Both the position numbers and the translations under genes were made by a program. Shown here in pieces: positions 1,700-17,862 of a DNA stretch of 45,304 nt; position 1 is the stretch's first letter; each line of letters opens with the position of its first letter. The notes beneath the pieces are model-generated. The model had not been told where the DNA came from. It did not search any database and saw only the letters and a program-made list of their open reading frames with translations. Where the stretch lies: contig NZ_PDNU01000044.1 in assembly GCF_002631185.1 (NCBI RefSeq), positions 1-45,304 of the forward strand, given 5' to 3'. The stretch is from Teichococcus rhizosphaerae. GTDB taxonomy: Bacteria; Pseudomonadota; Alphaproteobacteria; Acetobacterales; Acetobacteraceae.

Positions 1700-3961
1700 T
1701 CAGAACCGGTAGCGGATGGAGCCGGTGACGGTGCGGCCATAGCCATACCAGCAGCAGGCATAGGAGTAGCAGCTGGCGACGTAGCGGGTGTCGGCCAGGT
1801 TCTGGATGTTCACCGCCGCCTGCATGCCCTCGAGGTTGCGGCCGAGCTGGCCGAGGTCGTAGCGCAGCGCGGCATCGAACAGCGTGGCGGAATCCACCTT
1901 GAAGGTGTTGGCGTCGTCGCCGAAGGAGGAGCCGAGATAGCGCACGCCGCCGCCTAGGCCGAGGCCCATGAGGCGGCCTTCCGGCGCGGTGTAGTCGAGC
2001 CAGGCGGAGGCGTTGTGGCGCGGGATGCCGGTGGGCGTCTTGCCTTCCAGCGCCACGGTGGGGCCGGTGCGCGCGGGGCTGAAGCCGAAATCGACGGTGG
2101 AGGTGTTGCTGGTGCTGCTGAACTCCGCCTCCTGGTAGGCATAGGCGGCGGTCAGGCGCAGGCCCTGCGCCAGTGTCGCCTTCGCCTCCAGCTCGATGCC
2201 GCGCGTCGTCGTCTCGCCGGACTGGACGCTGAAGCCGAAATTGGCCGGGTCGGCGGACAGCACGTTCTGCCGCACCAGGTCGAAGGCGGCGACGCTCAGC
2301 AGCAGGTTGGTGCCGGGCGGCTGGTAGCGGAGGCCGACCTCGTGCTGGCGCCCGCGCGTCGGCTCGAACTGGTTGCCGCGCGCATCGGTGCCGCTCTGCG
2401 GCTCGAAGCTCTCACTGTAGCTGACATAGGGGGCGAAGCCGTTGTCGAACAGGTACACGGCGCCGGCGCGGCCGGTGAAGGCATGGTCGGTCGCGCGCGA
2501 GTTGGTGCGGCGGCCATTGACCAGATTGGTGCCCTCATTCGTGCTGTCGGACCAGTCCAGGCGGCCGCCGAACAGCAGCACCAGGCGGTCGATCCTGACC
2601 TGGTCCTGCAGATAGGCGCCGAGCTGGTTCTGGCGCTGGCTGCTGTAGCTGCTGAAGCCGGGCCAGCGGGTGTTCTGGCCCTGATAGACGGGGCTGAACA
2701 GGTTCTGCCGCCGGATCTGCGCCCCCAGATAGCTCTGGCCGGTATAGGTGTCCTGCAGCACGCGGTGATAGTCGAGCCCGGCCAGCACGGTGTGGCGCAG
2801 CGGCCCCGTATCGACGTTCAGCTGCAACTGGTTGTCGATGGTGAAGACGTCCACATCGGCGTCGGTGCCATAGACCGAACGGACCGAGCTCAGATAGTCG
2901 CTGGAGATGAGCGAGTTTTAGACGCTGCGGTACTCGCCCTGGGTGTGCAGGTAGCGGAAGTTCTGCCGCACCGCCAGTGTCTCGTTGAAGCGGTGCTCGG
3001 CGAGGTAGCCCACCATGTAGTGCTCGCGGTTGGAGCGCTCCAGGTCCGGGTCGCCGTCATAGAAGCGCACGCCGATGCGGCCGCGCGGGTTGGGCAGCGC
3101 CGAGCCCCAGGCCGGCACGTTGCCATAGGCGGCGGATTCCGGGTCCCGCTGGTAGTGGCCGAACAGGGTGACGCTGGTGTTCGCGCTCGGCCGCCAGGTG
3201 AGCGAGGGGGAGAAGAAGTAGCGGCGCTCCCGCGTCTCATCCAGCTCGCCATCGCCCTCGGCATAGGAGCCGATGAAGCGGCCGAGCCACTGGCCATCCT
3301 CGTCCAGCCGCCCGCTGAAATCGCCGGCCGCGCGGTAGCGGCCGCGCGTGCCCGCCTCCAGCAGCACCTCGCGGATGCGCTCGCCGGTGGGGCGCTTGCT
3401 GACGGCGTTGACGATGCCGCCGGGCGGCGCGGTGCCATAGAGCACCGAGGCCGGGCCGCGCAGCACCTCCAGCCGCTCCAGGCGATAGGCATCGATGCTG
3501 GGATTGGCGTCGCGCCCGCCGGCCAGCCGCATGCCGTCCAGATAGGTGGCGGGCGAGTAGCCGCGCAGGGTGAGCTGGTCGAGGCGCACGGCGGTGGCAC
3601 CGCGCGTTTCCGTCACCGCGCCCGCCGTGTAGCGGAGCGCCTGGTTCAGGTTGCGGGCGTTGCGCGCCTCGATCTCGTCGGCGGTGACCACGGAGATCGA
3701 TTGCGGCGTCTCGATGATCGGGGTGTCGGTCTTGGTGCCGGAGGCGCTGACGCCCGCCACGAAGCCGCGCACCGGGCTGTATGCGCGCTCGACGCCGGCC
3801 TGGACATTCACCTCGGGCAGCGCGATGGCGCCGGACGCCGCATCCGGCGCCGTGCCGCCCTGTGCCCAGGCCACGGAAAGGGGCAGGGTCACGGCGGCGG
3901 CGGTCAGCGCCATGAGCGGGCCCCTGTGCCGGGCAGGGGGGGCGTGTTCACCGTCAGGCAT
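1700..3961 (-). pseudogene. TonB-dependent siderophore receptor interrupted by one in-frame stop
   Basis: Outer-membrane receptor that would import a ferric hydroxamate-type siderophore using TonB energy. The ATG at 3961 has an AAGGA ribosome site and a signal peptide ending near 'SVAWAQG'. The plug domain follows (TPQSISVVTADEIEARN, LTLRGYSPATYLDGMR, ERLEVLRGPASVLYG), then the barrel, ending in the expected aromatic residue (SIRYRF). The C-terminal 'CYSYACCWYG' resembles the CYS-x3-C motif of ferrichrome/ferrioxamine receptors. After 'GEYRSV' there is a TAA at 2918-2920. The same frame then continues without loss for 405 more codons, so a single substitution separates the halves. Total length would be about 753 residues, normal for the family. 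Either the gene is recently inactivated or this is a base-call error. It has no extra N-terminal signalling domain, so it is not a FecA-type transducer. Confidence 0.85.
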
Positions 3962-4004: not shown

Positions 4005-4461
4005 TATTGCGGAGAGGCGTGGCTGGCAAGGGCTTCTTTGACAGGCCGCAGGAGGCTCGCCGGTTCGCGCCACCTTCGCGGCTTTGCGGCAATGGAACCG
4101 CGCCAGGGCGCCTGGAAGGGTTAGCACGCGCTGGAAAGGTTGAAGCTTCTGCCCGAACGTGCTGCGGTCCTGGGATGCGGGGGCGAAGCTGCCCGGCAGG
4201 CAGTGTCGCGGGGTTGTGATGCCGCCATCCCGCCTTCTTCTTTGTTGTTGAAGCTTGACCGGCTGGTCCCTCCTTCCGGCCCGTGGCGTCATGCCCGTGT
4301 TTCCGGAGAGGGCGCGGGGTGCCGAGGCGCCCGGGCCGGTTCTCCGCCAGAAGGCGTGGCGCCTGCCGCGCCGTCTTCCGCACCGATCGGAGTGTCTTCT
4401 TGCGAACCCAGCGTCCCGCCTGCCAGCCCTTCGGCCCGCCGCTCCTTCAGGAGCCGCGGCG
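4005..4461. other. Intergenic region between divergent receptor pseudogene and dehydrogenase
   Basis: No convincing gene. Frames extending upstream of the dehydrogenase start lack family similarity. The stretch holds a T-rich motif at 4235-4246 that recurs in the next divergent promoter region, and a TTGACA hexamer at 4038-4043 with no clear -10 partner. A good ribosome site (CAGGAG) precedes the ATG at 4462. It presumably carries the promoter for the dehydrogenase/oxidoreductase pair. Confidence 0.5.
4235..4246 (+). repeat. T-rich motif TTCTTCTTTGTT, copy 1
   Basis: TTCTTCTTTGTT stands out in a GC-rich background about 215 bases upstream of the dehydrogenase gene. Near-identical copies are at 9937-9947 and 10113-10126, all associated with transcription units of the carbohydrate cluster. 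Confidence 0.4.
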
Positions 4462-5445
4462 ATGACGGAGGCGGCTCCCGGCCCCACCATGCGCGCCGCC
4501 GTGCAGACCGGCCCCGGCCGGATGCAGATCCAGGACGTGCCCCGCCCCGAGCCCGGCCCGGGCCAGGTTCGGCTGCGGCTGGAGGGTTGCGGGGTCTGCG
4601 CCTCCAACCTGACGCCCTGGGCCGGGCCGGAATGGATGCGGTTTCCCGGCGAGCCGGGCGGGCTTGGCCATGAGGGCTGGGGGGTGATCGACGCGGTGGG
4701 GGAGGGGGTGAGCGGCCTCGCCCCTGGCCAGCGCGTCGCCGCCCTGTCCTTCCGCAGCTATGCCGAGTACGACCTGGCCGAGGCGCGCCACGTTCTGCCG
4801 CTGCCCGATGCCCTGGCAGGCCAGCCCTTCCTGGGCGAGCCGCTGGGCTGCGCCATGAACATCTTCCGCCGCGCCGGGATCGAGCCGGGGCAGAGCGTCG
4901 CCATCGTCGGCATCGGCTTCCTGGGCGCCATCCTGACGCGGCTGGCGACCGATGCGGGGGCCAGGGTCATCGCCATCTCGCGGCGGCCCTATTCGCTGGA
5001 TCTGGCGCGGCGCATGGGCGCGGCCGAGACCATCCCGATGGAGGACCATGCCGCCATCATCGAGCGGGTCCGGGAGCTGACCGGCGGCCGCTTCTGCGAG
5101 CGGGTGATCGAGGCGGTGGGCAAGCAGTGGCCGCTCGACCTGGCGGGCGAGCTGACGGCGGAGCGCGGCCGCTTGGTCGTGGCCGGCTACCACCAGGACG
5201 GGCCCCGCCAGGTCAACATGTGGCTCTGGAACTGGCGCGGCATCGACGTCATCAACGCGCATGAGCGGGACCCGGAGACCTACATGGCCGGCATGCGCGA
5301 CGCGCTGGAGGCGGTGACGTCGGGCCGGCTGGACCCGGCGCCGCTCTACACCCACCGCTTCCCGCTGGAACGGCTGGGCGAGGCGCTGGACGCCACGCGC
5401 GACAGGCCGGAGGGCTTCCTCAAGGCCGTGGTGACCCTGCCATGA
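4462..5445 (+). CDS. Zinc-type medium-chain alcohol/polyol dehydrogenase
   Basis: MDR-superfamily NAD(P)-dependent dehydrogenase of 327 residues, likely oxidising a sugar or polyol hydroxyl. Likely catalytic zinc ligands are Cys46 (GVC) and His70-Glu71 (GHE). The Rossmann fold follows with 'VAIVGIGFLGAI' and a second-strand 'VIAISRRP'. The four-cysteine structural-zinc lobe of classical alcohol dehydrogenases is missing, so it belongs to the shorter MDR branch. The start at ATG 4462 is chosen because CAGGAG sits 7 bases upstream and the family N-terminus (MRAAVQTGPGR) follows; the frame is open further upstream but without similarity. The stop overlaps the next start by 4 bases (ATGA), so it is translationally coupled to the Gfo/Idh oxidoreductase. 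The substrate is unknown; context points to inositol or a sugar intermediate. Confidence 0.85.
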   Translation: MTEAAPGPTMRAAVQTGPGRMQIQDVPRPEPGPGQVRLRLEGCGVCASNLTPWAGPEWMRFPGEPGGLGHEGWGVIDAVGEGVSGLAPGQRVAALSFRSYAEYDLAEARHVLPLPDALAGQPFLGEPLGCAMNIFRRAGIEPGQSVAIVGIGFLGAILTRLATDAGARVIAISRRPYSLDLARRMGAAETIPMEDHAAIIERVRELTGGRFCERVIEAVGKQWPLDLAGELTAERGRLVVAGYHQDGPRQVNMWLWNWRGIDVINAHERDPETYMAGMRDALEAVTSGRLDPAPLYTHRFPLERLGEALDATRDRPEGFLKAVVTLP

Positions 5446-6428
5446 GGCGCCCGCGGCTCGGCTTCCTGGGGATCGGCTGGATCGGCCGTCACCGGATGCA
5501 GGCGATCGCCGAGACCGGCCTGGCCGAGATCGCCGCCATCGCCGATCCCACGCCCGCCATGCTGGAGGAGGCGGCGCGGCTGGCGCCCGGCGCCCGCCGC
5601 GCCGGCACGCTGGAAGAGCTGCTCGCGCAGAACCTGGACGGGCTGGTGATCGCCACCCCCAGCGCCCTGCATGCCGAGCAGTCGATCCAGGCCCTGCAAC
5701 GCGGCGTCGCGGTGTTCTGCCAGAAGCCGCTCGGCCGCACCGCGCCCGAGGTGCGGGCGGTGGTGGAGGCGGCGCGCGCGGCCGACCGGCTGCTGGCGGT
5801 GGACCTTTCCTACCGCTTCACCGAGGGCATGCGGCGCATCCGTGACCTGCTGCAATCGGGCGAGCTGGGCCGCATCCATGCGGTGGACCTCGTCTTCCAC
5901 AATGCCTATGGCCCGGACAAGTCCTGGTTCTACGACCCCGCGCAGTCAGGCGGCGGCTGCGTCATGGACCTTGGCGTGCACCTGGTGGACCTGGCGCTGT
6001 GGGCGCTGGACTTCCCGGCGGTGGAGACGGTGTCCGGCACGCTGTTCGCCGGCGGCGAGCGCCTGGGCGCGCAGCCGGGGCGAGTCGAGGACTACGCCAC
6101 GGCCAGCATTGATCTCCAGGATGGCACGGCGGTGCGCCTGGCCTGCTCCTGGCGGCTGCAGGCCGGCTGCGACGCGATGATCTCGGCCGCCTTCTACGGC
6201 ACCGAGGGGGGCGCGGCGCTGCGCAACGTCAATGGCTCCTTCTACGACTTCGCGGCGGAGCGCTACCGCGGCACGGCGCGCGAGACGCTGGCCAGCCCGC
6301 CCGATGCCTGGGGCGGCCGCGCCGCGGCGGAATGGGCGCGCCGGCTGGCCGAGGGGCAGCGCCACGACCCTGCGGTGGAGCGCATCGTCGATGTGGCGCG
6401 GGTGCTGGACGGGATCTACGGCCGGTAG
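5442..6428 (+). CDS. Gfo/Idh/MocA family oxidoreductase
   Basis: NAD(P)-dependent sugar or inositol oxidoreductase of 328 residues, a normal length. The N-terminal Rossmann fold shows 'LGFLGIGWIGRHRM' and acidic 'AAIADPTP'. The family's catalytic lysine motif appears as 'CQKPLGRT' (Lys95-Pro96), with Gln in place of the usual Glu of EKP. In the C-terminal domain 'CVMDLGVHLVDLALW' gives Asp176 and His180, the usual D-x3-H pair. It overlaps the dehydrogenase by 4 bases. Members include inositol 2-dehydrogenases and nucleotide-sugar 3-dehydrogenases. The inositol-phosphate synthase in the same cluster makes an inositol-type substrate attractive, but that is an inference. It converges on the glycosidase gene, with hairpins between. 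Confidence 0.85.
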   Translation: MRRPRLGFLGIGWIGRHRMQAIAETGLAEIAAIADPTPAMLEEAARLAPGARRAGTLEELLAQNLDGLVIATPSALHAEQSIQALQRGVAVFCQKPLGRTAPEVRAVVEAARAADRLLAVDLSYRFTEGMRRIRDLLQSGELGRIHAVDLVFHNAYGPDKSWFYDPAQSGGGCVMDLGVHLVDLALWALDFPAVETVSGTLFAGGERLGAQPGRVEDYATASIDLQDGTAVRLACSWRLQAGCDAMISAAFYGTEGGAALRNVNGSFYDFAAERYRGTARETLASPPDAWGGRAAAEWARRLAEGQRHDPAVERIVDVARVLDGIYGR

Positions 6429-6484: not shown

Positions 6485-7372
6485 TCAGCCGGCGTAGCGC
6501 CGCACCATGCTGGCGCAGAACTCGGCGAACTCCTCCTTCACCTGCGGCGGGCTGGTGTGGTGCGGCGCGATGCCACGGTGCTCCGGCGTGAAGCAGAAGG
6601 TGGCGGTGACATGGAAGTCGCGCAGCGCCTCCATCTGCCGGTCGAACCAGGCGAGCGCGTCGGGGCGGAAGCTGTCGGCCCAGGACAGGCCGGTGCGCAG
6701 ATGCGTGACACCCAGGCGCTTGAGCCAGGTCACCGCATCGTCCAGCCTGTGGTCCTGGTAGTGAAACCACTGGCAGATGCCGAGATGCGGCGTGTGCTTC
6801 TCGAACTCCTCCATGGCCAGCTTCGGCGTGCCATCCTCGCGCAGCAGGCCCATGTGGAAGTGGCGGTAATAGGACGAGCCTTCCGCCTCCCGGTGCCGCG
6901 TCGTGGCTTCCCAGTGGGCCGGCAGGTCGTAGAGGCTGTACCAGTGGATGCGAGGCGCCTGGCCGATGAGCAGCTCCGCCGTGCGCTTCAGGCCCCAGAG
7001 CTGCACCTCCTCCGCGCCGAAGGTGGAGATGCCCACCTCCGAGACCCAGACCGGCAGGTGCGTGACCGCCTGGATCTCCCGCAGCTTCTCCGGCCACTCA
7101 TGGATCAGCCAGTTGTTCCAGTCGAGCGGGAAGCCGTGCACCGCGACGGCCTCCACCTCGTCCAGCACGCCGCGCTGCTGCATCTTCATGATGAACACCG
7201 GGTCGATCGGGGACATGCCGCCCAGCACGCGCGGCAGCGTGGCGTGCTCGGCGCGGATGGCCTGGCCGGCGAGCCGCGCCGTCTCGGCGAACATCACCCA
7301 GTCCGGGTCGATCTCCGGGTCCCAGTGGGACTTGTTGTTGGGTTCGTTCCAGATCATCACCGAGTCGAGCAT
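6485..7372 (-). CDS. Glycosidase-like TIM-barrel protein, apparently circularly permuted
   Basis: A 295-residue protein resembling retaining glycosidases of the GH5/GH39 (clan A) type. 'MIWNEPNNKSHW' holds the acid/base Glu10, and 'PVWVSEVGIS' holds the candidate nucleophile Glu112. In clan A enzymes these are on strands 4 and 7. Here strand 4 is at the very N-terminus. Strands 5-8 follow (VLGGMSPID, VAVHGFPLDW, VSEVGIS, HWYSLYDLP). The last 100 residues then look like strands 1-3 (HLGICQWFHYQD, HLRTGLSWADS, VTATFCFTPEHRG) and end at 'EFCASMVRRYAG', where a normal barrel would continue into WNEP. The start ATG at 7372 shares one base with the methyltransferase stop (TGATG). No signal peptide is seen, so it is cytoplasmic. 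It may trim or transfer a sugar (xyloside?) in the cluster's product; the substrate is unknown. Confidence 0.8.
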   Translation of the reverse strand: MLDSVMIWNEPNNKSHWDPEIDPDWVMFAETARLAGQAIRAEHATLPRVLGGMSPIDPVFIMKMQQRGVLDEVEAVAVHGFPLDWNNWLIHEWPEKLREIQAVTHLPVWVSEVGISTFGAEEVQLWGLKRTAELLIGQAPRIHWYSLYDLPAHWEATTRHREAEGSSYYRHFHMGLLREDGTPKLAMEEFEKHTPHLGICQWFHYQDHRLDDAVTWLKRLGVTHLRTGLSWADSFRPDALAWFDRQMEALRDFHVTATFCFTPEHRGIAPHHTSPPQVKEEFAEFCASMVRRYAG

Positions 7373-8121
7373 CAAGACGGGCCTCTCGCAGGATAGACGG
7401 CCGCCGAGCCGTAGGGCACCGGGGCGGGCCGACAGACATAGATCTCGCGGTCCGGGTGCTGCAGGATCTCGAAGCCCGCATTGCGCAGCATGGCCTCGGC
7501 GCCGGCGCGGTTCGGGATCCACCAGTTGGTGACGTCGCCCGCATAGCGGTGCTCGATGAAGTGCAGCCGCGGCCAGCCCGGCCGGGCGAACTGCTCCTCC
7601 GCCGTGAAGGGATAGTCCTCCCGCGCCGGCTCCACCTCGCGCGGGCCGCGCTGCATGCTCTGGAACACCAGCAGGCCGCCGACCACATGCTCGCGCAGCA
7701 GGTCGAGCGCCAGCAGCGGGTGCCGCAGATGGTAGAGCACGCCCATGAACAGCACGAGGTCGAAGCGCTCGCCCAGCGCGCCGACGTCATAGACCGACAA
7801 TTGGCGGTACTCGATGTCGAGGCCCAGCACGCCCGCCGCGAAGCGGGCCTGTTCCAGGTAGCGCGGATCGGAATCGACGCCGAGCACGCGCGCGGCGCCG
7901 CGCCGCTTCATCTCGATGGAGAAGAAGCCGGCGTTGCAGCCGATGTCGAGAACCGACTTCCCCGTGAGATCCTGCGGCAGGGCGTGGCTGAAATACTGCC
8001 AGACACAGGCGGGGTAGTTTCCCAGCGCATGCTCCGGCGCCGTGGGCACGCCATGCAGGAGAAGGTTGTGGAACCAGGGGCCGAGCTTCGCGGCTTCCTC
8101 GCCAATCCTGTCGGGGTTCAT
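7372..8121 (-). CDS. SAM-dependent methyltransferase (resembles the TIGR04290 / Rta_06860 family)
   Basis: Class I methyltransferase of 249 residues. Motif I is 'VLDIGCNAGFFSIEM', the acidic end of strand 2 is 'VLGVDSDPRYLEQAR', and strand 4 is 'FDLVLFMGVLYHLRHP'. The N-terminal 'LGPWFHNLLLHGVPTAPEH' with 'YPACVWQYF' matches what I remember of the TIGR04290 family, which occurs beside glycosyltransferase genes; family membership should be confirmed by profile search. It probably O-methylates a sugar or cyclitol. It overlaps the histidine-phosphatase gene by 4 bases upstream and the glycosidase by 1 base downstream, so the three are translationally coupled. Confidence 0.85.
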   Translation of the reverse strand: MNPDRIGEEAAKLGPWFHNLLLHGVPTAPEHALGNYPACVWQYFSHALPQDLTGKSVLDIGCNAGFFSIEMKRRGAARVLGVDSDPRYLEQARFAAGVLGLDIEYRQLSVYDVGALGERFDLVLFMGVLYHLRHPLLALDLLREHVVGGLLVFQSMQRGPREVEPAREDYPFTAEEQFARPGWPRLHFIEHRYAGDVTNWWIPNRAGAEAMLRNAGFEILQHPDREIYVCRPAPVPYGSAAVYPARGPS

Positions 8122-8732
8122 GCCGCCTCCTTTGCCGCGAAGGGCTGCTCGTTCAGGCCCAGCACCTTGCCGCCGCCCTTCCAGAGGACCAGCGTGGTGA
8201 GCGAGGCGGGCGCGATGTCGAAGCGCTCATAGCCCTGCAAGGGCAGGCCGAGGACATGGGAGATGGCGGCCTTGATGACGTCGCCATGGCTGACCAGCGC
8301 GATCCGCCCTTCCGGCTGGCGCTCCTGCACGGCGCAGATCCAGTCCAGCACGCGGCGCTGCACGGCGCGCATGGATTCGCCGCCCGGCGCCGCCGCCTCG
8401 TCGCGCGCGCTGTTCCAGTGCCGCCAGCGCGGGTCCTCCTGCAGGCGGGCGAAGGAGAGGCCGGTCCATTCGCCGAAATCGATCTCGGCGAGGGCGTCCT
8501 CGGCCAAGGGTTCGAGGCCCAGCGCGGCACCGATGGGAGCGGCGGTCTCCAGGCAGCGCCGGAGAGGGCTGCTGTGCAGCGCGGCGATCGCCTCGCCCCG
8601 CAGCCTCGCCGCCAGCGCGGCGGCCTGGGCGCGCCCGGCGGCGCCGAGGCCGATGCCCGCCATGCGCCCGCAAAGCGTATCCGCCACGCGGTCATGCGCG
8701 GCGTGACGCACGAGGAACAGTGTCAGCGCCAT
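8118..8732 (-). CDS. Histidine phosphatase family protein
   Basis: A 204-residue member of the phosphoglycerate-mutase-like superfamily. The phospho-accepting motif is 'FLVRHAAH' (Arg9, His10; Ala replaces the common Gly). 'SSPLRRCLETA' carries the second Arg, 'EIDFGEWTGL' the acid region, and 'ALVSHGDVIK' the second histidine (His149). The sequence resembles CobC/broad-specificity phosphatases rather than glycolytic mutases. It lies 9 bases downstream of the inositol-phosphate synthase gene and overlaps the methyltransferase by 4 bases. No SuhB-type inositol monophosphatase is in the cluster, so it may dephosphorylate inositol phosphate or a glycosyl phosphate; this is inference from position. 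Confidence 0.88.
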   Translation of the reverse strand: MALTLFLVRHAAHDRVADTLCGRMAGIGLGAAGRAQAAALAARLRGEAIAALHSSPLRRCLETAAPIGAALGLEPLAEDALAEIDFGEWTGLSFARLQEDPRWRHWNSARDEAAAPGGESMRAVQRRVLDWICAVQERQPEGRIALVSHGDVIKAAISHVLGLPLQGYERFDIAPASLTTLVLWKGGGKVLGLNEQPFAAKEAA

Positions 8733-8741
8733 GCCAGGCGG

Positions 8742-9824
8742 TCAGTCCAGGCCCTGGATGAAGCGCAGGGTGCGCTCGCGCGCCTCATGGTCGGTGTACT
8801 GCTTGGGGGGAGACTTCATGAAATAGCTGGAAGGCGCCGTCAGCGCGCCTGCCAGCCCGCGGTCCAGCGCGATGCGCGCGCAGCGCACCGCATCGATGAC
8901 GATGCCGGCGGAGTTGGGCGAATCCCACACTTCCAGCTTCAACTCCAGATTCAGCGGCACGCCGCCGAAGGCCGTGCCCTCGAGCCGGATATGCGCCCAT
9001 TTGCGGTCGCCCAGCCAGGGCACGTAGTCGCTCGGGCCGACATGCACGTCATTGGCCGGCAGCGGCATGTCGAGCTGGCTGGTCACCGCCTGGGTCTTGG
9101 AGATCTTCTTGGATTCCAGCCGCTCCCGTTCCAGCATGTTCTGGAAGTCCGTGTTGCCGCCGAAGTTCAACTGGTAGGTGCGGTCGAGCCGCACGCCACG
9201 CTCGCGGAACAGGTTGGCCAGCACGCGGTGCACGATGGTGGCACCGACCTGGCTCTTGATGTCGTCGCCGATGATCGGCAGGCCGCGCTCCTCGAAGCGC
9301 TTCTGCCAGCGGGCGTCGGAGGCGATGAAGACGGGGATGCAGTTGACAAAGGCGCAGCCGGCCTCCAGCGCGCGCTCCGCGTACCATTCGCTGGCCTGCT
9401 GCGAGCCGACCGGCAGGTAGGACACCAGCACCTGCGTGCCGCTGCGGCGGAGGACATCGGCGACATCGGCGGCTGGCGCGTCCGATTCCTCGAAGGTGCC
9501 GCGCACATAGCGCCCGAGCCCATCGAGCGTCGGGCCCCGCTCCACCCTCACCCCGGTGGGGGATGGCCGCGCGAAGACCTGGGTGTTGTTGGGTGCGGCC
9601 AGCACCGCCTCGGCGACATCGCGGCCGACCTTGGCGGCGTTGACGTCGAAGGCGCAGCTGACCTCCACGTCGCGCACATGGTAGCCGCCGAGATCGGCAT
9701 GCATCAGGCCCGGGATCGGCTCGTTCACGTCGGCATCGCGGTAATGGGAGAGCCCCTGCACGAAGGAGGAGGCGCAGTTGCCGACACCGACGAGGCCCAC
9801 ACGAAGAGATCTGGATGCCGACAC
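8742..9824 (-). CDS. ino1: Inositol-3-phosphate synthase
   Basis: Converts D-glucose 6-phosphate to 1D-myo-inositol 3-phosphate with internal NAD redox. It is 360 residues long, the short prokaryotic (actinobacterial/archaeal) form. Visible marks are the nucleotide-binding '[16 protein letters not shown]', '[16 protein letters not shown]', '[17 protein letters not shown]' with the active-site lysine region, '[18 protein letters not shown]' and '[13 protein letters not shown]'. I chose the GTG at 9824 because AAGGAGG lies immediately upstream; an in-frame ATG at 9854 lacks a comparable ribosome site. It is the first gene of a four-gene minus-strand operon, divergent from the epimerase/glycosyltransferase operon. 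The enzyme is uncommon in alphaproteobacteria outside special biosynthetic loci, which supports a dedicated inositol-containing product. Confidence 0.93.
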
Positions 9825-9936
9825 GAATCCTCCTTGCCCAGCGAACCTGCGCATTCCGGGCGCTCCGGCCGAGCGTCCCGCTGTGGCGTTCAGGCTAGAA
9901 CGTCACAGCGCATGGTGGCCACAACTCCCCACCAGC

Positions 9937-10176: not shown

Positions 10177-11292
10177 GTGCAAGAGACTGTTCTGATCACC
10201 GGTGGCGGAGGCTTCATCGGCTGCCACCTGGCACGACGCCTGTTGCACGCCGGCTATCATGTGCGGGTGCTGGACAGCCTCATCGAGCAGGTGCACGGCA
10301 CGCGCAGCCGGCCCGACCTGCTGGAGCCGGACGTGGAGTTCCAGAAGGGTGATGTGCGCGACCCCGAGGCGGTGCGCCGGGCGCTGCGTGGCGCCGACCG
10401 CGTGGTTCACCTCGCCGCCGAGGTCGGTGTCGGCCAGAGCATGTACGCGGTGGACCGCTATGTCTCGGTCAACGATTTCGGCACGGCGGTGCTGTTCCAG
10501 CAGTTGATCGACGCGCCGGTGAAGCGCGTGGTGGTCGCCTCCTCCATGAGCATCTATGGCGAGGGGATGTACCAGGATGCCGATGGCATGCTGCACGAGG
10601 ATGTCCGCCGCGTGCCGCGCCGCGGGCCGGATGCGCCATGGGACCCGCTGGATGCGCAGGGCCGCCCCCTGCGGCCGGTGCCCACGCCGGAAGGCAAGCG
10701 CCCCGCGCTCGCCTCGGTCTATGCCATCTCCAAGCACACGCAGGAATGCCTGACACTGACGCTGGCGCCGGCCTATGGCATGGAGGGCGTCGCGCTGCGG
10801 CTGTGGAACGCCTATGGGCCGGGGCAGGCGCTGTCCAACCCATATACCGGCGTGCTGGCGATCTTCGCATCCCGCCTGCACAACGGCCAGCCGCCGGTGA
10901 TCTTCGAGGATGGAAGGCAGCGCCGCGACTTCGTGCATGTCGAGGACGTGGCGCGCGCCTTCCACCTGGCGCTGGAACGGCCCGAGGCGGCCAACCAGGT
11001 CTACAACGTCGCCAGCGGGCATGACCGCACCGTGACCGAGGTGGCCCAGGCGCTGGCCGCGGCCATGGGCCGGCCGCAGATGGCGCCGGAGATCACCAAC
11101 AAGACGCGCAGCGGCGACATCCGCCACAACATCGCCGATATCGGCAAGATCCGGCGCGAACTGGGCTTCGCGGTGGACCGGGACTTCCAGGCCGACCTCG
11201 CCGAGCTGGCCGAATGGGTCGCGCGGCAGCAGGCGGAGGACCGCGTGCAGCAGGCCCGCAGCGAGCTCGAGACCCGGGGGCTGGTCGCGTGA
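10177..11292 (+). CDS. NAD-dependent epimerase/dehydratase (dTDP-L-rhamnose 4-epimerase-like)
   Basis: Extended short-chain dehydrogenase acting on a nucleotide sugar. The cofactor motif is 'LITGGGGFIGCHLA', the catalytic serine region is 'VVASSMSIYGEGMY', and Tyr-x3-Lys is 'YAISK'. 'NAYGPGQALSNPYTGVLAIF' and 'FEDGRQRRDFVHVEDVARAF' are the pattern I associate with the dTDP-L-rhamnose 4-epimerase branch; exact substrate uncertain. The start is taken as GTG 10177 (VQETVLITGGG) because AGGGA lies about 9 bases upstream; an upstream in-frame ATG at 10132 would add a non-conserved leader. Length is 371 residues. It is the first gene of a seven-gene operon, and its stop overlaps the next GTG start by 4 bases. 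Confidence 0.85.
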   Translation: MQETVLITGGGGFIGCHLARRLLHAGYHVRVLDSLIEQVHGTRSRPDLLEPDVEFQKGDVRDPEAVRRALRGADRVVHLAAEVGVGQSMYAVDRYVSVNDFGTAVLFQQLIDAPVKRVVVASSMSIYGEGMYQDADGMLHEDVRRVPRRGPDAPWDPLDAQGRPLRPVPTPEGKRPALASVYAISKHTQECLTLTLAPAYGMEGVALRLWNAYGPGQALSNPYTGVLAIFASRLHNGQPPVIFEDGRQRRDFVHVEDVARAFHLALERPEAANQVYNVASGHDRTVTEVAQALAAAMGRPQMAPEITNKTRSGDIRHNIADIGKIRRELGFAVDRDFQADLAELAEWVARQQAEDRVQQARSELETRGLVA

Positions 11293-12392
11293 GCGGGGCC
11301 GCCCCGCTCGCCATGCCGGCGCTGCGGCCAGGGGAGCGGGCGAGGCCGGTCCTGGTGACCGGCGGCGCGGGGTTCATCGGCTCCAACCTGGCGGACCGGC
11401 TGCTGCGCGACGGCCATGAGGTGCTGGTGTTCGACGCGCTGGCGCGCCCCGGCGTCGCGGCCAATCTGGAATGGCTGAAGCAGCAGCACGGCGCGCGGAT
11501 GATCCCCATGGTCGCCGATCTGCGGGACGATGCCGCCGTGCGGGAAGCGGCGCGGGACGCGCAGGCGGTGTTCCACCTGGCGGCGCAGGTGGCGGTGACC
11601 ACCAGCCTCCACGATCCGCGCGAGGATTTCGACGTCAACCTGCGCGGCACCTTCACCCTGCTGGAGGCGCTGCGCCAGCGCGGCGAGAAGGTGCCGCTGA
11701 TCTTCGCCAGCACCAACAAGGTGTATGGCAACCTGCCCGACATCGCCCTGGAGCGCAGCGGCGAGGCCTATGTGCCGGTCGATCCGGCGATCCGGGAGCG
11801 CGGCATCGGCGAGCAGCGGCCGCTCGACTTCCACACGCCCTATGGCTGCTCCAAGGGCGCGGCCGAGCAGTACGTGCTGGACTATGCGCGTTCCTTCGGC
11901 CTGCCCGGCGCGGTTCTGCGGATGAGCTGCATCTATGGCGAGCGGCAGATGGGCACCGAGGATCAGGGCTGGGTCGCGCATTTCCTGATCCGTGCCCTGC
12001 GGCGCGAGCCGATCACCATCTTCGGCGATGGCTGCCAGGTGCGCGACCTGCTGCAGGTGCAGGATGCGGTGGACGCCTACATCGCCGCCTGGCGCCGGAT
12101 CGGCGAGGTGCGGGGCGAGGCCTTCAACCTGGGCGGCGGCCCTGGCAACGCGGTCAGCCTGCGGCAGGTGATCGCCGCCATCGAGGCGCAGCTCGGCCAT
12201 CCGGTGGAGACCGTCTATGGCGACTGGCGCGCCGGCGACCAGCGCTACTACGTGTCGGACACGCGGCGGGTGACGGAGCGGCTCGGCCTCGGGGCGCCGA
12301 CGCCGTGGCGGCAGGGCCTCGCGGCGCTCGCGCGGTGGCTCGACGGCCGTCAGCGCGGCGCGGCGCTGGACGTGGTGAGCGCCGCGCAGTGA
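11289..12392 (+). CDS. NAD-dependent epimerase (CDP-paratose 2-epimerase-like)
   Basis: Extended short-chain dehydrogenase of 367 residues. 'VLVTGGAGFIGSNLADRLL' binds NAD, 'LIFASTNKVYGNL' gives the catalytic Thr/Ser region and 'TPYGCSKGAAEQYVLDYARSFG' contains Tyr-x3-Lys. The STNKVYG and GCSKGAAEQYV motifs are the ones seen in CDP-paratose 2-epimerases and their relatives. It probably epimerises a nucleotide sugar for the glycosyltransferases that follow. The GTG at 11289 overlaps the previous stop (GTGA), so this start is strongly supported by coupling. Its own stop overlaps the next gene by 4 bases. It is not closely similar to the preceding epimerase, so the two likely act on different sugars. 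Confidence 0.85.
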   Translation: MSGAAPLAMPALRPGERARPVLVTGGAGFIGSNLADRLLRDGHEVLVFDALARPGVAANLEWLKQQHGARMIPMVADLRDDAAVREAARDAQAVFHLAAQVAVTTSLHDPREDFDVNLRGTFTLLEALRQRGEKVPLIFASTNKVYGNLPDIALERSGEAYVPVDPAIRERGIGEQRPLDFHTPYGCSKGAAEQYVLDYARSFGLPGAVLRMSCIYGERQMGTEDQGWVAHFLIRALRREPITIFGDGCQVRDLLQVQDAVDAYIAAWRRIGEVRGEAFNLGGGPGNAVSLRQVIAAIEAQLGHPVETVYGDWRAGDQRYYVSDTRRVTERLGLGAPTPWRQGLAALARWLDGRQRGAALDVVSAAQ

Positions 12393-13507
12393 GGGCGGCG
12401 ACCCGGCCCCTGCACGTGCTGGTGACGGCCGATGCGGTGGGCGGCGTCTGGTCCTATGCCATGGCCTTGTGCCGCGGCCTGCTGGCGGGCGGCACGCGGG
12501 TGACGCTGGCGGTGCTCGGCCCTTCGCCCGGTGCCGCGCAGCGGCTGGAGGCGGCGGCGCTTCCGGGCCTGCGCCTGCTCGACACGCGGCTGCCGCTCGA
12601 CTGGATGTCGCCCAGTGCGGCGGCGGTGCGCGACAGCGGCCGCCAGCTCGCGGCCCTGGTACGGGAAAGCGGGGCGGAGCTGCTGCACCTCAACAGCCCC
12701 GCCCTGGCGGCCGGCAACCGCTTCCCGGTGCCGGTGCTGGCCTTCTGCCATTCCTGCCTGGCCAGCTGGTGGGACGCCGTGAAGGCCGGCCCGCTGCCGC
12801 CGGAATTCGCCTGGCACCGTGAGCTGCTGGCCGAGGGCTACGGCGGAGCGGACCTGCTCGCCGCCCCCAGCAGGGCCTTCGCCGACGCCACCCGGACGCT
12901 CTATGCCCTTCCGGAGCGGCCGCGCACCGTCCACAACGGCATTCCTCCGCTAGCTCTGCCGCCTGCCCGGGCGGAAGGGCCGTTCGCCTTCACGGCCGGC
13001 CGGCTCTGGGACGAGGGCAAGAACCTCGCCACGCTGGACGCTGCGGCGGCAGGGCTTCCAATCCCCTTCCTGGCCGCCGGGCCGCTGGAAGGCCCGGGCG
13101 GCGCCCATGCCGGGCTGCGCCACCTGCTGGCGCAGGGCAGCCTCGACCGCCCGGCGATGCAGGCCATCCTGGCGCGGCGGCCCATCTTCGCCTCCGCCGC
13201 GCGCTACGAACCCTTCGGGCTGGCGGTGCTGGAAGCGGCGCAGGCGGGCTGCCCGCTCGTGCTCTCCGACATCCCGACCTTCCGCGAGATCTGGGGCGGC
13301 GCCGCCGACTATGTCCCGTCCGGGGACGCCGCCGGCTTCGCGGAAGCGTTGCGCCGCCTCGCGGCCTCGCCCCGGCTGCGCGCGGCGCGCGGCCAGGCCG
13401 CCCGGCTGCGCGCCGCGCGCTACACGGCCGAAGCCATGGCGGCGGAGACCCTCGGCCTCTACCGCGCCCTGGTGCCCGCTCCCCACGCCCTGGAAGCGCC
13501 CGCATGA
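12389..13507 (+). CDS. Glycosyltransferase, GT-B fold (GT4-like)
   Basis: A 372-residue GT-B glycosyltransferase transferring sugar from a nucleotide donor. The N-terminal acceptor domain opens with 'HVLVTADAVGGVWSYAMALCRGL', where the GGV-x6-L loop is typical of GT4 enzymes. The C-terminal donor domain has 'FTAGRLWDEGKNLATL' and the E-x7-E motif 'EPFGLAVLEAAQAG', then 'LVLSDIPTFREIWGGAA'. It is cytoplasmic with no membrane segment. The GTG at 12389 overlaps the epimerase stop (GTGA). It differs clearly from the next three glycosyltransferases, which are of the CgeB-like type, so it probably makes a distinct linkage, possibly the first one onto the inositol acceptor (inference). Confidence 0.85.
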   Translation: MRAATRPLHVLVTADAVGGVWSYAMALCRGLLAGGTRVTLAVLGPSPGAAQRLEAAALPGLRLLDTRLPLDWMSPSAAAVRDSGRQLAALVRESGAELLHLNSPALAAGNRFPVPVLAFCHSCLASWWDAVKAGPLPPEFAWHRELLAEGYGGADLLAAPSRAFADATRTLYALPERPRTVHNGIPPLALPPARAEGPFAFTAGRLWDEGKNLATLDAAAAGLPIPFLAAGPLEGPGGAHAGLRHLLAQGSLDRPAMQAILARRPIFASAARYEPFGLAVLEAAQAGCPLVLSDIPTFREIWGGAADYVPSGDAAGFAEALRRLAASPRLRAARGQAARLRAARYTAEAMAAETLGLYRALVPAPHALEAPA

Positions 13508-14664
13508 AGATCGCCTATCTGACGCATTCCCTGCTGTCCTGCTGGAACCATGGCAACGCGCATTTCCTGCGCGGCGTGCTGCGCGAGCTGGTGCTGCATG
13601 GCCATGACGTCTCGGTGTTCGAGCCGGACGGCAATTGGAGCCTCGAGAATCTGCGCCGCGATGCCGGCGATGCCGGGCTGGACGCCTTCCGCACCGCCTA
13701 TCCGGAACTCTCCTCGCGCAGCTACGCCGATGCGGCGGAGATCGAGGATGCGCTGGGCGAGGCCGATCTTGTCATCGTCCATGAATGGAACGACCCGGCG
13801 GTGGTGGCGCGGATCGGCCGGCTGCGCGCGCGGGGCGGCCGCTTCCGCCTGCTGTTCCACGACACGCATCACCGCGCGGTCAGCGACCCGGAGGCGATCC
13901 GCGCCTTCGACCTGTCCGGCTATGACGGCGTGCTGGCCTTCGGCGAGACGCTCGCCGCCGTGTATCGCCGCTGGGGCTGGGGAAACCGCGTCTGGGTCTG
14001 GCATGAGGCGGCCGATCTGCGCCACTTCCACCCGCCCATTTCCGAAGGGCCGCGCCGGGGACTGGTCTGGATCGGCAACTGGGGCGATGGCGAACGCAGC
14101 GCCGAGATCGAGAGCTTCCTGCTCCGCCCGGCGCGCGAGGCGGGCCTGCCGCTCGACATCCATGGCGTGCGCTACCCGGCGGAGGCGCGGGCGAGGCTCG
14201 CCGCCCATGGCGCGCGCTACCTGGGCTGGCTGCCCAATGCCCGCGCGCCGGAAGCCTTCGCCCGCCACCTCGCCACGGTGCATGTGCCGCGCCGCTACTA
14301 CACGAAGCTGCTTCCCGGCATTCCGACCATCCGCGTCTTCGAGGCGCTGGCCTGCGGCATTCCCCTGCTCAGCGCCCCGTGGGACGACAGCGAGAACCTT
14401 TTCCGGCCCGGCACCGACTACCTCGCCGCCCGCGATGGCGGGGAGATGCGCCGCCACATGACGGCGATCCGCGAGGATGCCGCCCTGCGGGAATCCCTTG
14501 TCGCCCACGGCCTCGAAACCGTCCGGGCGCGGCATGGCTGCGAGCACCGCATGCGCGAGCTGCTGGCGATCGCCGACGCCCTGGCGGCATCGCCGGGGGC
14601 GCCAGGGAGCGGAGAGGCGGAAACCAGGAAGATGGGGCCCAAGAACATGGGGAATGCCGCATGA
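13504..14664 (+). CDS. Glycosyltransferase, CgeB-like (Glyco_trans_1_2), first of three
   Basis: A 386-residue GT-B enzyme. It opens with 'MKIAYLTHSLLSCWNHGNAHFLRG' and shows the CgeB-type donor domain: 'LVWIGNWGDGERSAEI', 'LGWLPNARAPEAFARH', then 'RVFEALACGIPLLSAPWDD' and 'LFRPGTDYLAARDGGE'. The same architecture recurs in the next two genes, with a shared N-terminal S-x-W-x2-G motif, so the three are probably ancient tandem duplicates with separate acceptors or linkages. The ATG overlaps the previous stop by 4 bases. The last 30 residues are low-similarity, Gly/Lys-containing and probably dispensable. Confidence 0.85.
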   Translation: MKIAYLTHSLLSCWNHGNAHFLRGVLRELVLHGHDVSVFEPDGNWSLENLRRDAGDAGLDAFRTAYPELSSRSYADAAEIEDALGEADLVIVHEWNDPAVVARIGRLRARGGRFRLLFHDTHHRAVSDPEAIRAFDLSGYDGVLAFGETLAAVYRRWGWGNRVWVWHEAADLRHFHPPISEGPRRGLVWIGNWGDGERSAEIESFLLRPAREAGLPLDIHGVRYPAEARARLAAHGARYLGWLPNARAPEAFARHLATVHVPRRYYTKLLPGIPTIRVFEALACGIPLLSAPWDDSENLFRPGTDYLAARDGGEMRRHMTAIREDAALRESLVAHGLETVRARHGCEHRMRELLAIADALAASPGAPGSGEAETRKMGPKNMGNAA

Positions 14665-15746
14665 AGATCGCGTTCTACGGCTCCAGCCTGCTGTCCTCCT
14701 ACTGGAACGGGGCGGCCACCTATTACCGCGGCATGCTGCACGACCTGTCCCGCCGCGGCCATGACATCACCTTCTACGAGCCCGATGCCTTCGGCCGCCA
14801 GCAGCACCGCGACATCGAGCCGCCGGACTGGGCGCGCGTCGTCGTCTATCCGGCGACGGAGGATGCGCTGCGCGGCGTGATGGCCGAGGCGCGCCAAGCG
14901 GATGTGGTGGTCAAGGCCAGCGGCGTCGGCGTGTTCGACGACGCGCTGATCGAAGGCGTCATGGACGCCGCCCGCGCCGATGCCCTCCGCATCTTCTGGG
15001 ATGTGGACGCGCCGGCGACGCTGGCCGAGATCACGCCGCAGCCGGACCACCCGCTGCGCCGCACCCTGCCGAAGCTGGATTTCGTGCTGACCTATGGCGG
15101 CGGGCCGCCGGTGGTCGCCGCCTACGAGGGCCTGGGCGCGCGGCGCTGCGTGCCGGTCTACAACGCGGTCGATCCCGCCACGCACCACCCGGTGCCGGCC
15201 GAGCCGCGCTTCCGGGCCGACCTGTCCTTTCTCGGCAACCGCCTGCCGGACCGCGAGGCGCGGGTCGAGGAGTTCTTCCTGCGCCCCGCCGCGCTGCTGC
15301 CGGAGCGCGCCTTCCTGATCGGCGGCAATGGCTGGGAAAGCAAGGCGATGAGCGGCAATGTCCGCCATCTCGGCCATGTCTACACGCGCGAGCACAACGC
15401 CTTCAACACCTCGCCGCTGGCCGTGCTGAACATCGCCCGCGACAGCATGGCGCAGACGGGATGGTCGCCCGCCACCCGCGTCTTCGAGGCGACCGGCGCC
15501 GGCGCCTGCCTCATCACCGATGACTGGCTCGGCCTCGACATGTTCCTGAAGGCGGGCGAGGAGGTTCTCGTGGCGCGCGACGGACAGGACGTCGCCGAGC
15601 ATGTCGCCACCCTGACGCCGGAGCGCAGCAGGGCGATCGGCGAGGCGGCGCGGCGCCGCATCCTCCAGTCCCACACCTACGCGCAGCGCGGCGCCGAGGT
15701 GGATACGCTGCTGCGCGCGGCCCTGGCGCGGAAGGACGCCGCATGA
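14661..15746 (+). CDS. Glycosyltransferase, CgeB-like, second of three
   Basis: A 361-residue GT-B enzyme. The N-terminus 'MKIAFYGSSLLSSYWNGAATYYRG' parallels the preceding gene, 'IFWDVDAPATLAEI' marks the end of the acceptor domain, and 'LSFLGNRLPDREARVEEFFLRPA' starts the donor domain. 'RVFEATGAGACLITDDW' and 'FLKAGEEVLVARDGQDV' form the donor-site signature. It is coupled by ATGA overlaps on both sides. The start at 14661 is fixed by this overlap; the frame is open further upstream but only inside the previous gene. Confidence 0.87.
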   Translation: MKIAFYGSSLLSSYWNGAATYYRGMLHDLSRRGHDITFYEPDAFGRQQHRDIEPPDWARVVVYPATEDALRGVMAEARQADVVVKASGVGVFDDALIEGVMDAARADALRIFWDVDAPATLAEITPQPDHPLRRTLPKLDFVLTYGGGPPVVAAYEGLGARRCVPVYNAVDPATHHPVPAEPRFRADLSFLGNRLPDREARVEEFFLRPAALLPERAFLIGGNGWESKAMSGNVRHLGHVYTREHNAFNTSPLAVLNIARDSMAQTGWSPATRVFEATGAGACLITDDWLGLDMFLKAGEEVLVARDGQDVAEHVATLTPERSRAIGEAARRRILQSHTYAQRGAEVDTLLRAALARKDAA

Positions 15747-16843
15747 GGCTGGTGGTGCTGGGGCTCACCCTGTCCTCCTCATGGGGCAACGGGCACGCGA
15801 CCACCTTCCGCGCCCTGCTGCGCGCCTTTGCCAAGCGCGGTCACGAGGTGCTGTTCCTGGAGCGCGACAAGCCCTGGTACGCCGCGCACCGCGACATGCC
15901 GGAGCCCGGCTTCTGCCGCCTCGAATTCTACCAGGAGCCCGAGGGGCTGCGCCGCTGGCGGGACGAGATCGGCGCGGCGGACGCGGTGATGGTGGGCTCC
16001 TACGTCCCCGACGGCGTCGCCGTCGGGCGCATGGCGCAGGAGATGGCGCGCGGCGTCCGCGCCTTCTACGACATCGACACGCCCGTCACGCTGGCCAAGC
16101 TGGAGAAGGGCGACGAGGAATACCTCTCGCCCGCGCTGATCCCGGGCTATGACCTCTACTGCTCCTTCACCGGCGGGCCGACGCTGGAGCTGCTGATGCG
16201 CCGATACGGCTCGCCGGCGGCGCGGGCGCTGTACTGCTCGGTGGACGCGGCGGCCTACCAGCCCGTGGAGACGCCCCGGCGCTGGGACCTCAGCTATCTC
16301 GGCACCTACAGCCCCGACCGCCAGCCGGTGCTGGAGCGGCTGCTGCTGGAGCCCGCGCGCCGCGCGCCGCAGCTCCGCTTCGCGGTCGCCGGGCCGCAAT
16401 ACCCGGCCGGGATCGACTGGCCGGCCAATGTGGAGCGGCTGGAGCATGTGCCGCCGAGCGAGCACCCCGCCTTCTACAGCGCCAGCCGCTACACGCTGAA
16501 CGTCACCCGCGCCGACATGGTGCGCGCCGGCTTCAGCCCCAGCGTGCGCCTGTTCGAGGCCGCTGCCTGCGGCAGCCCGGTGATCTCCGACCGCTGGGAC
16601 GGCATCGGCGACGTGCTCTCCCCCGGCACGGAGATCCTGCTGGCCGACGGCGCGGAGGATGTGCTGCCCATCCTGCTCGACCCCGACGACGCGGCGCGCG
16701 ACCGGCAGGCGGCGGCGGCGCGCCGCAGGATCCTCGCGGCCCACACGGCGGAGCACCGCGCCGCGCAACTCGAGGCCATGCTGCAGGCGGCGTGGCACGA
16801 CAGGACGACCCGCCACGCGGCCGATGAAAGGGCAAGCGCATGA
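15743..16843 (+). CDS. Glycosyltransferase, CgeB-like, third of three
   Basis: A 366-residue GT-B enzyme. The N-terminus 'MRLVVLGLTLSSSWGNGHATTFRA' carries the same S-x-W-x2-G signature, 'AFYDIDTPVTLAKLEKGD' and 'YDLYCSFTGGPTLELL' close the first domain, 'LSYLGTYSPDRQPVLERLLLEPA' opens the second, and 'RLFEAAACGSPVISDRWDGI' with 'VLSPGTEILLADGAED' forms the donor site. It most resembles the second paralogue in the D(V/I)D-x-P-x-TLA segment. Four-base overlaps join it to both neighbours. It presumably adds one sugar of the cluster's product. Confidence 0.87.
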   Translation: MRLVVLGLTLSSSWGNGHATTFRALLRAFAKRGHEVLFLERDKPWYAAHRDMPEPGFCRLEFYQEPEGLRRWRDEIGAADAVMVGSYVPDGVAVGRMAQEMARGVRAFYDIDTPVTLAKLEKGDEEYLSPALIPGYDLYCSFTGGPTLELLMRRYGSPAARALYCSVDAAAYQPVETPRRWDLSYLGTYSPDRQPVLERLLLEPARRAPQLRFAVAGPQYPAGIDWPANVERLEHVPPSEHPAFYSASRYTLNVTRADMVRAGFSPSVRLFEAAACGSPVISDRWDGIGDVLSPGTEILLADGAEDVLPILLDPDDAARDRQAAAARRRILAAHTAEHRAAQLEAMLQAAWHDRTTRHAADERASA

Positions 16844-17862
16844 GTGCAGCCAAGTCCCGGAACGTCCTGGTCGCCGGCGGCGCCGGCTTCCTCGGCTCCC
16901 ATCTGTGCGACGCGCTGATCGCCGAGGGCGCGCATGTCTTCTGCGTGGACAGCCTGCGCACCAGCTCGGGCGCGAATCTGCGCCACCTGCGGCGCTCGGG
17001 CCGCTTCACCTTCATCGAGGCCGACATCATCGATGAGTTGCCGGCCGCCGCCCTGCCGCGCAGGCTGGACCGGGTGTTCAACCTGGCCTGCCCCGCCTCG
17101 CCGCCGCAGTACCAGGCCGATCCCGAGCACACCATGATGACCAATGTGCTGGGCACGCGGAACCTCCTGCGCCTGGCCGAGCGGCACAATGCCCGGTTCC
17201 TTCAGGCCTCCACCAGCGAGGTCTATGGCGACCCGGAGGTGCATCCGCAGGTCGAGACCTATTCCGGCAATGTCAGCTGCACCGGCCCGCGCGCCTGCTA
17301 CGACGAAGGCAAGCGCGCGGCCGAGGCGCTGTGCTTCGACTTCGACCGCGCGCGCCGGGCGGAGATCAGGCTGGTGCGCATCTTCAACACCTATGGGCCG
17401 CGCATGCAGCCGGATGACGGGCGGATCGTCTCCAACGTCATCACCCAGGCATTGAGCGGCGCCGACATCACCATCTATGGCGATGGCAGCCAGACCCGCT
17501 CCTTCTGCTATGTGGACGATCTGGTGGAAGGGCTGGTGCGGCTGATGGCCTATGAGGGGCCGCAGCCCGGCCCCGTCAATCTCGGCAACCCCAACGAGCT
17601 GACGGTGCGCAGGCTGGTGGAGGATGTGCTGGCGATGACCGGCGGCCGCTCCGCCGTCACCTACCACCCCCTGCCCAAGGATGATCCGCGGCGCCGCAAG
17701 CCCGATATCAGCCGGGCCGGCGCGTTGCTGGGCTGGGCGCCGAGAACGCCCCTGGCCGAAGGCTTGCGGGCAACGCTCGAATGGTTCCGCAAGGTGGAGG
17801 AACCGGCCAGGCCGTCGGTGCAGCTGGCCAATGGGGCGATGCCGCTCTCGGCGGCGGATTGA
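16840..17862 (+). CDS. uxs: UDP-glucuronate decarboxylase (UDP-xylose synthase)
   Basis: Converts UDP-glucuronate to UDP-xylose. A 340-residue extended short-chain dehydrogenase with 'VAGGAGFLGSHLC' (NAD binding), the UXS hallmark 'ACPASPPQYQADPEHTMMTN', 'QASTSEVYGDPEVHPQ', and catalytic Tyr154-x3-Lys158 in 'GPRACYDEGKRAAE'. 'RIFNTYGPRM' and 'YGDGSQTRSFCYVDDLVEGL' are also typical. The normal family motif 'N(P)xGPR' reads 'SCTGPR' here. It is the last gene of the seven-gene operon, with a 4-base overlap upstream. It implies that xylose, or a sugar derived from UDP-xylose, enters the product, which fits the glycosidase-like gene in the divergent operon. Confidence 0.92.
   Translation: MSAAKSRNVLVAGGAGFLGSHLCDALIAEGAHVFCVDSLRTSSGANLRHLRRSGRFTFIEADIIDELPAAALPRRLDRVFNLACPASPPQYQADPEHTMMTNVLGTRNLLRLAERHNARFLQASTSEVYGDPEVHPQVETYSGNVSCTGPRACYDEGKRAAEALCFDFDRARRAEIRLVRIFNTYGPRMQPDDGRIVSNVITQALSGADITIYGDGSQTRSFCYVDDLVEGLVRLMAYEGPQPGPVNLGNPNELTVRRLVEDVLAMTGGRSAVTYHPLPKDDPRRRKPDISRAGALLGWAPRTPLAEGLRATLEWFRKVEEPARPSVQLANGAMPLSAAD

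Follow-up and report, generated by a model that had tools for sequence, protein, structure and literature searches.

The window analysed here, a 45,304-nucleotide stretch of Teichococcus rhizosphaerae DNA, carries a gene for a GH39-like glycosidase of clan GH-A (6485..7372, minus strand, stop included) whose 295-residue product very probably arose by natural circular permutation of a retaining β-glycosidase of the PslG-like GH39 type. In clan GH-A glycosidases, the WNEP motif is on strand 4 and the nucleophile on strand 7, after strands 1–3. In the window protein, sequence matches and a structural model together give the order 4-5-6-7-8-1-2-3: the chain starts at strand 4, with WNEP, and is predicted to form one eight-strand barrel. 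On the same evidence, the cut maps to the short loop that leads from helix 3 into strand 4, and a short linker appears to connect the original termini.

The gene and its boundaries

The reading frame runs from an ATG at 7372 to a stop codon at 6485–6487, which on translation gives 295 residues. WNEP occupies residues 8–11 (Glu10), SEVG starts at residue 111 (Glu112) and the C-terminus is EFCASMVRRYAG, all as described in a first-pass annotation of this DNA. That annotation also regarded the frame as closed by a translational overlap at the start and a hairpin at the convergent end. The overlap is there: one base is common to the start codon and the stop codon of the methyltransferase gene (TGATG). 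It is also conserved, since an ATG or GTG occupies the start position in 79 of 80 relatives (the best 80 of at least 575); in the remaining one (L038) a GTG is placed one or two codons earlier, from upstream bases. The hairpin is a weaker point than that annotation made it. Where the two genes converge, the GC-rich hairpin is no more stable than expected from base composition, with equally stable shuffles in 17/200 and 13/200 cases for the two strands, and the end of the gene does not depend on it.

A wrong start, with strands 1–3 encoded further upstream, was rejected because the methyltransferase gene reaches the start codon in the window and because the start is conserved. An assembly artefact was rejected because the permuted order is identical at all of the best 80 loci, which we take to be alphaproteobacterial.

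Active-site residues

The WNEP motif (7340..7351, minus strand) with the putative general acid/base Glu10 (codon 7343–7345) aligns with WNEP of PslG. The putative nucleophile Glu112 (7037..7039, minus strand), at the end of strand 7, aligns with the Glu of WSTEWG. Their counterparts, glutamates 139 and 250 of the PslG chain as counted from the alignment, are 111 residues apart. A spacing of 111 residues also separates the acid/base Glu165 from the nucleophile Glu276 of PslG, as given in PMC11912335. The clan GH-A signature is found in the model, in which Asn-Glu at 9–10 follows the strand at 2–7 and Glu112 lies within the strand at 108–113. Glu112 would serve as the nucleophile and Glu10 as the acid/base of a double-displacement reaction.

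Nine positions, chosen as presumed active-site or structural positions of clan GH-A, are identical in all 106 non-redundant permuted rows: N9, E10, H79, E112, W144, Y145, R226, W231 and P263. They include His79 on strand 6 (7136..7138, minus strand) and Arg226 on strand 2 (6695..6697, minus strand), the latter from the transposed C-terminal part; both are, we assume, active-site positions of the clan. Among the nine ordinary-order rows, N9, E10, H79 and Y145 are kept in eight, and E112, W144 and R226 in all nine.

This conservation bears on whether the permuted protein is an enzyme at all. It is encoded within a biosynthetic cluster and its chain begins seven residues before WNEP, which is too short a lead for a signal peptide; mature PslG, by contrast, is probably periplasmic (PMC11912335). 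Furthermore, one ordinary-order copy lacks WNEP, so a dead form can persist. Such observations would suit a catalytically inactive protein that serves the enzymes encoded next to it as a scaffold or by binding sugar. The invariance of N9, E10, H79, E112, W144, Y145 and R226 in 106/106 permuted rows argues against this, and we consider an inactive protein unlikely. An active glycosidase is the reading followed below.

Matches of the native and rotated sequences

In its native order (as a query with one extra leading residue) a search of Pfam families and PDB chains gave nothing at E ≤ 10, and no NCBIfam model matched the window protein at E ≤ 0.01. The rotated query was made by placing everything after residue 192 ahead of residues 1–192, with the join at 103/104. 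A continuous match across such a join had been proposed as a test of permutation, and the rotated sequence gave one: it matched PslG (GH39) over 9–156 with E = 6e-5. A native-order profile of 81 sequences (A2) matched PslG in two swapped pieces, 200–295 to 25–130 and 3–190 to 132–328; the C-terminal piece was weak (4.2 bits), and the other carried the match (E = 3.1e-5). A mixed profile of six rotated and five ordinary-order sequences matched PslG in one stretch over 6–288 (E = 3.8e-15), helped by its ordinary-order rows. Membership of GH39 by sequence similarity comes through PslG, from the rotated-query and mixed-profile matches.

A profile of the ordinary family, made from seven ordinary-order proteins of which three are from one genus, was scored on all 295 rotations of the window protein. 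The native order gave two domains (110.3 + 38.6 bits), and rotation 193 a single domain of 162.6 bits covering 4–289; the best of 200 shuffles reached 5.4 bits. No Pfam model reached its cut-off with the rotated or doubled window protein. The best E-values below cut-off were 0.0019 for PF11790 (doubled), 0.0027 for PF00150 and 0.14 for PF11790 (both rotated), and the Pfam GH39 model was absent among the matches of the native, rotated and doubled protein. Relatives are annotated as 'beta-xylosidase', 'glycosyl hydrolase' or 'hypothetical protein'. The permuted order may explain why profile libraries miss the family.

The ordinary-order relatives match the query at 194–294 and then at 6–187 (figures for G162) within one open frame with few residues between, and are 31–35% identical to the window protein over the rotated length. 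The C-terminal part matched their strands 1–3 part with E-values of 7.6e-9 to 1.9e-5 in six genomes. In the reverse search with an ordinary-order protein, the genomes with the permuted form showed the swapped order: the part matching 116–296 came first and that matching 11–110 second (figures for the window's genome). Both parts are thus homologous to ordinary-order proteins, in swapped order, the match of the C-terminal piece to PslG being weak.

Predicted fold

AlphaFold2, run with 81 sequences (the window protein and those of the best 80 loci), gave a model with a mean pLDDT of 92.0 and a pTM of 0.90; confidence is low for residues 151–170 (means of 67 and 58 over two blocks). A single-sequence model was discarded (pLDDT 38.7). 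As the first-pass annotation had counted, the total is eight strands, each of at least three residues. Strands 4–8 are predicted at 2–7, 48–53, 75–80, 108–113 and 142–145, within residues 1–191 (6800..7372, minus strand), which match the second part of ordinary-order relatives. Strands 1–3 are predicted at 198–200, 224–228 and 254–259, within residues 192–295 (6488..6799, minus strand), which match the first part. The numbering 4, 5, 6, 7, 8, 1, 2, 3 rests on these sequence matches. In the predicted fold, one catalytic Glu comes right after the first strand (β4) and the other ends the fourth (β7).

Foldseek, which keeps chain order, found weak generic barrel matches in the PDB. The best was an OMP decarboxylase (E = 6.4e-4), and among the 50 matches listed the query TM-score was at most 0.46 and a GH39 enzyme was absent. 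Weak sequential matches are expected of a permuted barrel but are not positive proof.

Taken by themselves, the lack of a Pfam family in native order, of a strong match in the sequential fold search and of more than 4.2 bits for the C-terminal piece against PslG could describe an incomplete barrel of strands 4–8 followed by an unrelated C-terminal domain, with strands 1–3 supplied by another protein. This we regard as very improbable, given the homology of the C-terminal part to strands 1–3 in the six genomes, the single 162.6-bit domain that spans both parts upon rotation, and the one confident model that holds all eight strands. The last 100 residues do not form a separate domain, as the same stretch directly precedes the WNEP part in ordinary-order relatives. 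Rotation matches, profiles and the invariance of Glu10 and Glu112 together bear out the original proposal of a natural circular permutant with both active-site glutamates.

Distribution of the two orders

A scan of a species-genome collection yielded the at least 575 confirmed relatives, of either order. In a class-level search of 289 genomes, 13 matched: six with the permuted order, including the window's genome, six with the ordinary order and one presumed chance match (G022, L014), an open frame without WNEP that was dropped. At the level of the phylum, a profile run on 398 genomes matched 31, of which 12 had swapped halves, two belonged to the fused ordinary family and 17 were more distant. 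In 12 of these 17, one match that starts before position 30 and ends beyond 160 spans the join in the ordinary order, and the matches of the other five are too short to tell.

Over four overlapping sets of 289, 398, 199 and 3 genomes, 25 genomes had the permuted form only, nine the ordinary form only and one (G734) both; the two forms rarely co-occur in the genomes searched. The ordinary copy of G734 (L145; L167 9617–10393) is fused to SDR2, lacks WNEP and no longer has Asn-Glu, His and Tyr at its active-site positions. Its permuted copy lies elsewhere in the genome, together with INO1, phosphatase, glycosyltransferase and methyltransferase genes. The ordinary form was found within the stretch read at 0/85 permuted loci.

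No relative was found in viral contigs. Among plasmid records 146 matched, and in 97 of them a single place covers 80% or more of the query; they include one Xanthomonas and one Sphingobium record. In Rhizobium and Geminicoccaceae plasmid records similar places are annotated as epimerase.

Gene neighbourhood

The glycosidase gene is the last of a run on the minus strand. An inositol-3-phosphate synthase-like gene (INO1; 8742..9854), scoring below the TIGR03450 equivalog cut-off and above the Pfam PF01658 cut-off, is followed by genes for a histidine phosphatase family protein (8118..8732) and a TIGR04290 family methyltransferase (7372..8121), whose stop overlaps the glycosidase start by one base. 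Divergent from this run, on the plus strand, are two genes of the NAD-dependent epimerase/dehydratase family, SDR1 (10180..11292, start codon approximate) and SDR2 (11313..12392, start chosen in this analysis). Four glycosyltransferase genes (12395–13507, with its start chosen here, 13504–14664, 14661–15746 and 15743–16843) and a gene for a UDP-glucuronate decarboxylase-like protein (16840..17862; E = 5e-95 to 4gll, UDP-glucuronic acid decarboxylase 1) complete the series. UDP-glucuronate decarboxylase-like enzymes make UDP-xylose. On the other side of the glycosidase lie genes for a zinc-type dehydrogenase (start chosen here) and a Gfo/Idh/MocA oxidoreductase (4456..6428, plus strand), the latter convergent with the glycosidase.

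Further out, a TonB-dependent receptor is split over two open frames on the minus strand (1700–2854 and 2918–3961), with the plug domain in one and most of the β-barrel in the other, so the gene looks broken or the assembly is in error there.

Within up to 9 kb of the 80 best loci, some of whose contigs end sooner, we found the methyltransferase in 74, the phosphatase in 73, INO1 in 71, SDR1 in 47 and SDR2 in 43. These neighbourhoods support the suggestion that the enzyme is dedicated to this cluster. At ordinary-order loci the arrangement is different: the SDR2 homologue carries the glycosidase at its N-terminus, in one open frame at 10/10 loci tested. The SDR1 and SDR2 matches are 852–996 bp apart in nine of these and 4326 bp in one, versus 6–42 bp in the eight permuted loci with a listed distance. 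An INO1 homologue was present in 5/5 permuted-only genomes tested (of the 25) and in G734 (1/1), versus 0/9 ordinary-only genomes.

The association of INO1 with the permuted glycosidase hints that the permuted version of the pathway has an inositol-containing product of its own. As a separate observation, related loci including L029, L032, L033, L141, L142 and L168 have an extra glycosyltransferase, 45–50% identical to the fourth of the window, adjoining the phosphatase, the methyltransferase or the permuted glycosidase; it is absent from the module of the window.

Evolutionary history

The glycosidase tree has 67 rows: 54 of the 106 permuted rows, nine ordinary rows and four outgroup rows (L021, L119 and L120, which matched in the strands 4–8 part only, and L118). 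L021 is a second, more distant relative in G277 and was not counted as an ordinary-form copy. Permuted and ordinary rows fall on separate branches (SH-aLRT 92 and 97), with the outgroup outside both. The value of 92 for a single permuted clade is below the star level of the tool, and the outgroup branches are very long. That the permuted order is ancestral and the fused form derived, as its higher frequency might suggest (26 versus 10 of the genomes searched, one in both), is hardly credible given the ordinary order of PslG, the ordinary order across the join in 12/17 more distant relatives (five being too short to tell) and the position of the outgroup.

The trees of SDR1 (30 rows) and SDR2 (28 rows), drawn from 33 loci and the window, each require, on starred branches, at least three changes between the permuted and ordinary labels, against a single one in the GT3 tree (30 rows). 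Bradyrhizobium L091, G623 (L142) and Devosia L058 have the permuted enzyme together with an SDR2 that, in its tree, groups with ordinary clusters, which suggests replacement. The ordinary cluster L170 falls beside permuted ones. The simplest reading, we infer, is that the chain was permuted once and that the fused form was then replaced repeatedly. The permuted form would have arisen once from an ordinary-order ancestor, travelled with the INO1–phosphatase–methyltransferase module and taken the place of the fused form in at least two lineages.

Possible function

Judged from its sequence and gene context, the protein most likely works in the cytoplasm as a retaining glycosidase, with the product of its own cluster or an intermediate as substrate; the cytoplasmic location is assigned because there is no room for a signal peptide. 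It would trim or transfer a β-linked sugar, which may be xylose, on whichever glycan or glycoside the cluster produces. Xylose is a guess from the UDP-xylose synthase in the cluster and the kinship with GH39, and the association with INO1 would also allow for an inositol glycoside. A link to apiose, suggested by PMC6193724, the only lead found in the literature on inositol or UDP-xylose clusters, was dropped because the chains most similar to the window enzyme are UDP-glucuronate decarboxylases.

Comparison with known systems

To our knowledge, whole TIM-barrel glycosidases that are circularly permuted in nature are rare, GH70 being a known precedent. Our literature search, which lay outside most subscription journals, found no circularly permuted clan GH-A enzyme, and nothing on TIGR04290.

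The nearest relatives found are the GH39-like domains fused to an SDR epimerase in alphaproteobacterial clusters. They have the same motifs in cyclic order, and their cluster genes are homologous to those of the window. They differ in their ordinary order, in the fusion to SDR2 and in the lack of INO1 in the nine ordinary-only genomes. Both orders thus survive in homologous clusters, and the permuted enzyme is small, single-domain and without added domains. This makes it a clean system in which to study the route to a permutation, its cost for folding and whether an enzyme can in this way be freed from a fusion partner.

PslG of Pseudomonas aeruginosa (5bx9) is homologous to the window protein over most of the barrel once the latter is rotated, and the catalytic glutamates align. 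PslG has the ordinary strand order and is longer (416-residue chains), whereas the window protein is permuted and minimal. The PslG gene presumably lies with exopolysaccharide genes; the neighbours of the window gene belong to another cluster, not Psl. PslG, an endoglycosidase associated with the Psl exopolysaccharide, belongs to GH39 and has a signal peptide (PMC11912335), in contrast to the window protein, which is too short at its start for one.

GH70 enzymes have catalytic residues different from those of clan GH-A. They belong to clan GH-H and are large extracellular multidomain enzymes with extra domains. Like the window protein, they have a naturally permuted glycosidase barrel, with the order α3-β4...β8-β1...β3 relative to GH13 (PMC11046441); non-permuted relatives of the glucansucrases exist (PMC9732880). 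The two cuts are nearly the same, that of the window protein being one helix further on. The helix 3/strand 4 loop may thus be a place where TIM-barrel glycosidases tend to be opened in nature. We lean moderately towards a joint reading in which the window protein represents the first natural permutant of clan GH-A, transfer of the INO1–phosphatase–methyltransferase module replaced the fused form in several alphaproteobacterial lineages, G734 is caught midway, and the barrel opened at the same favoured place as in GH70.
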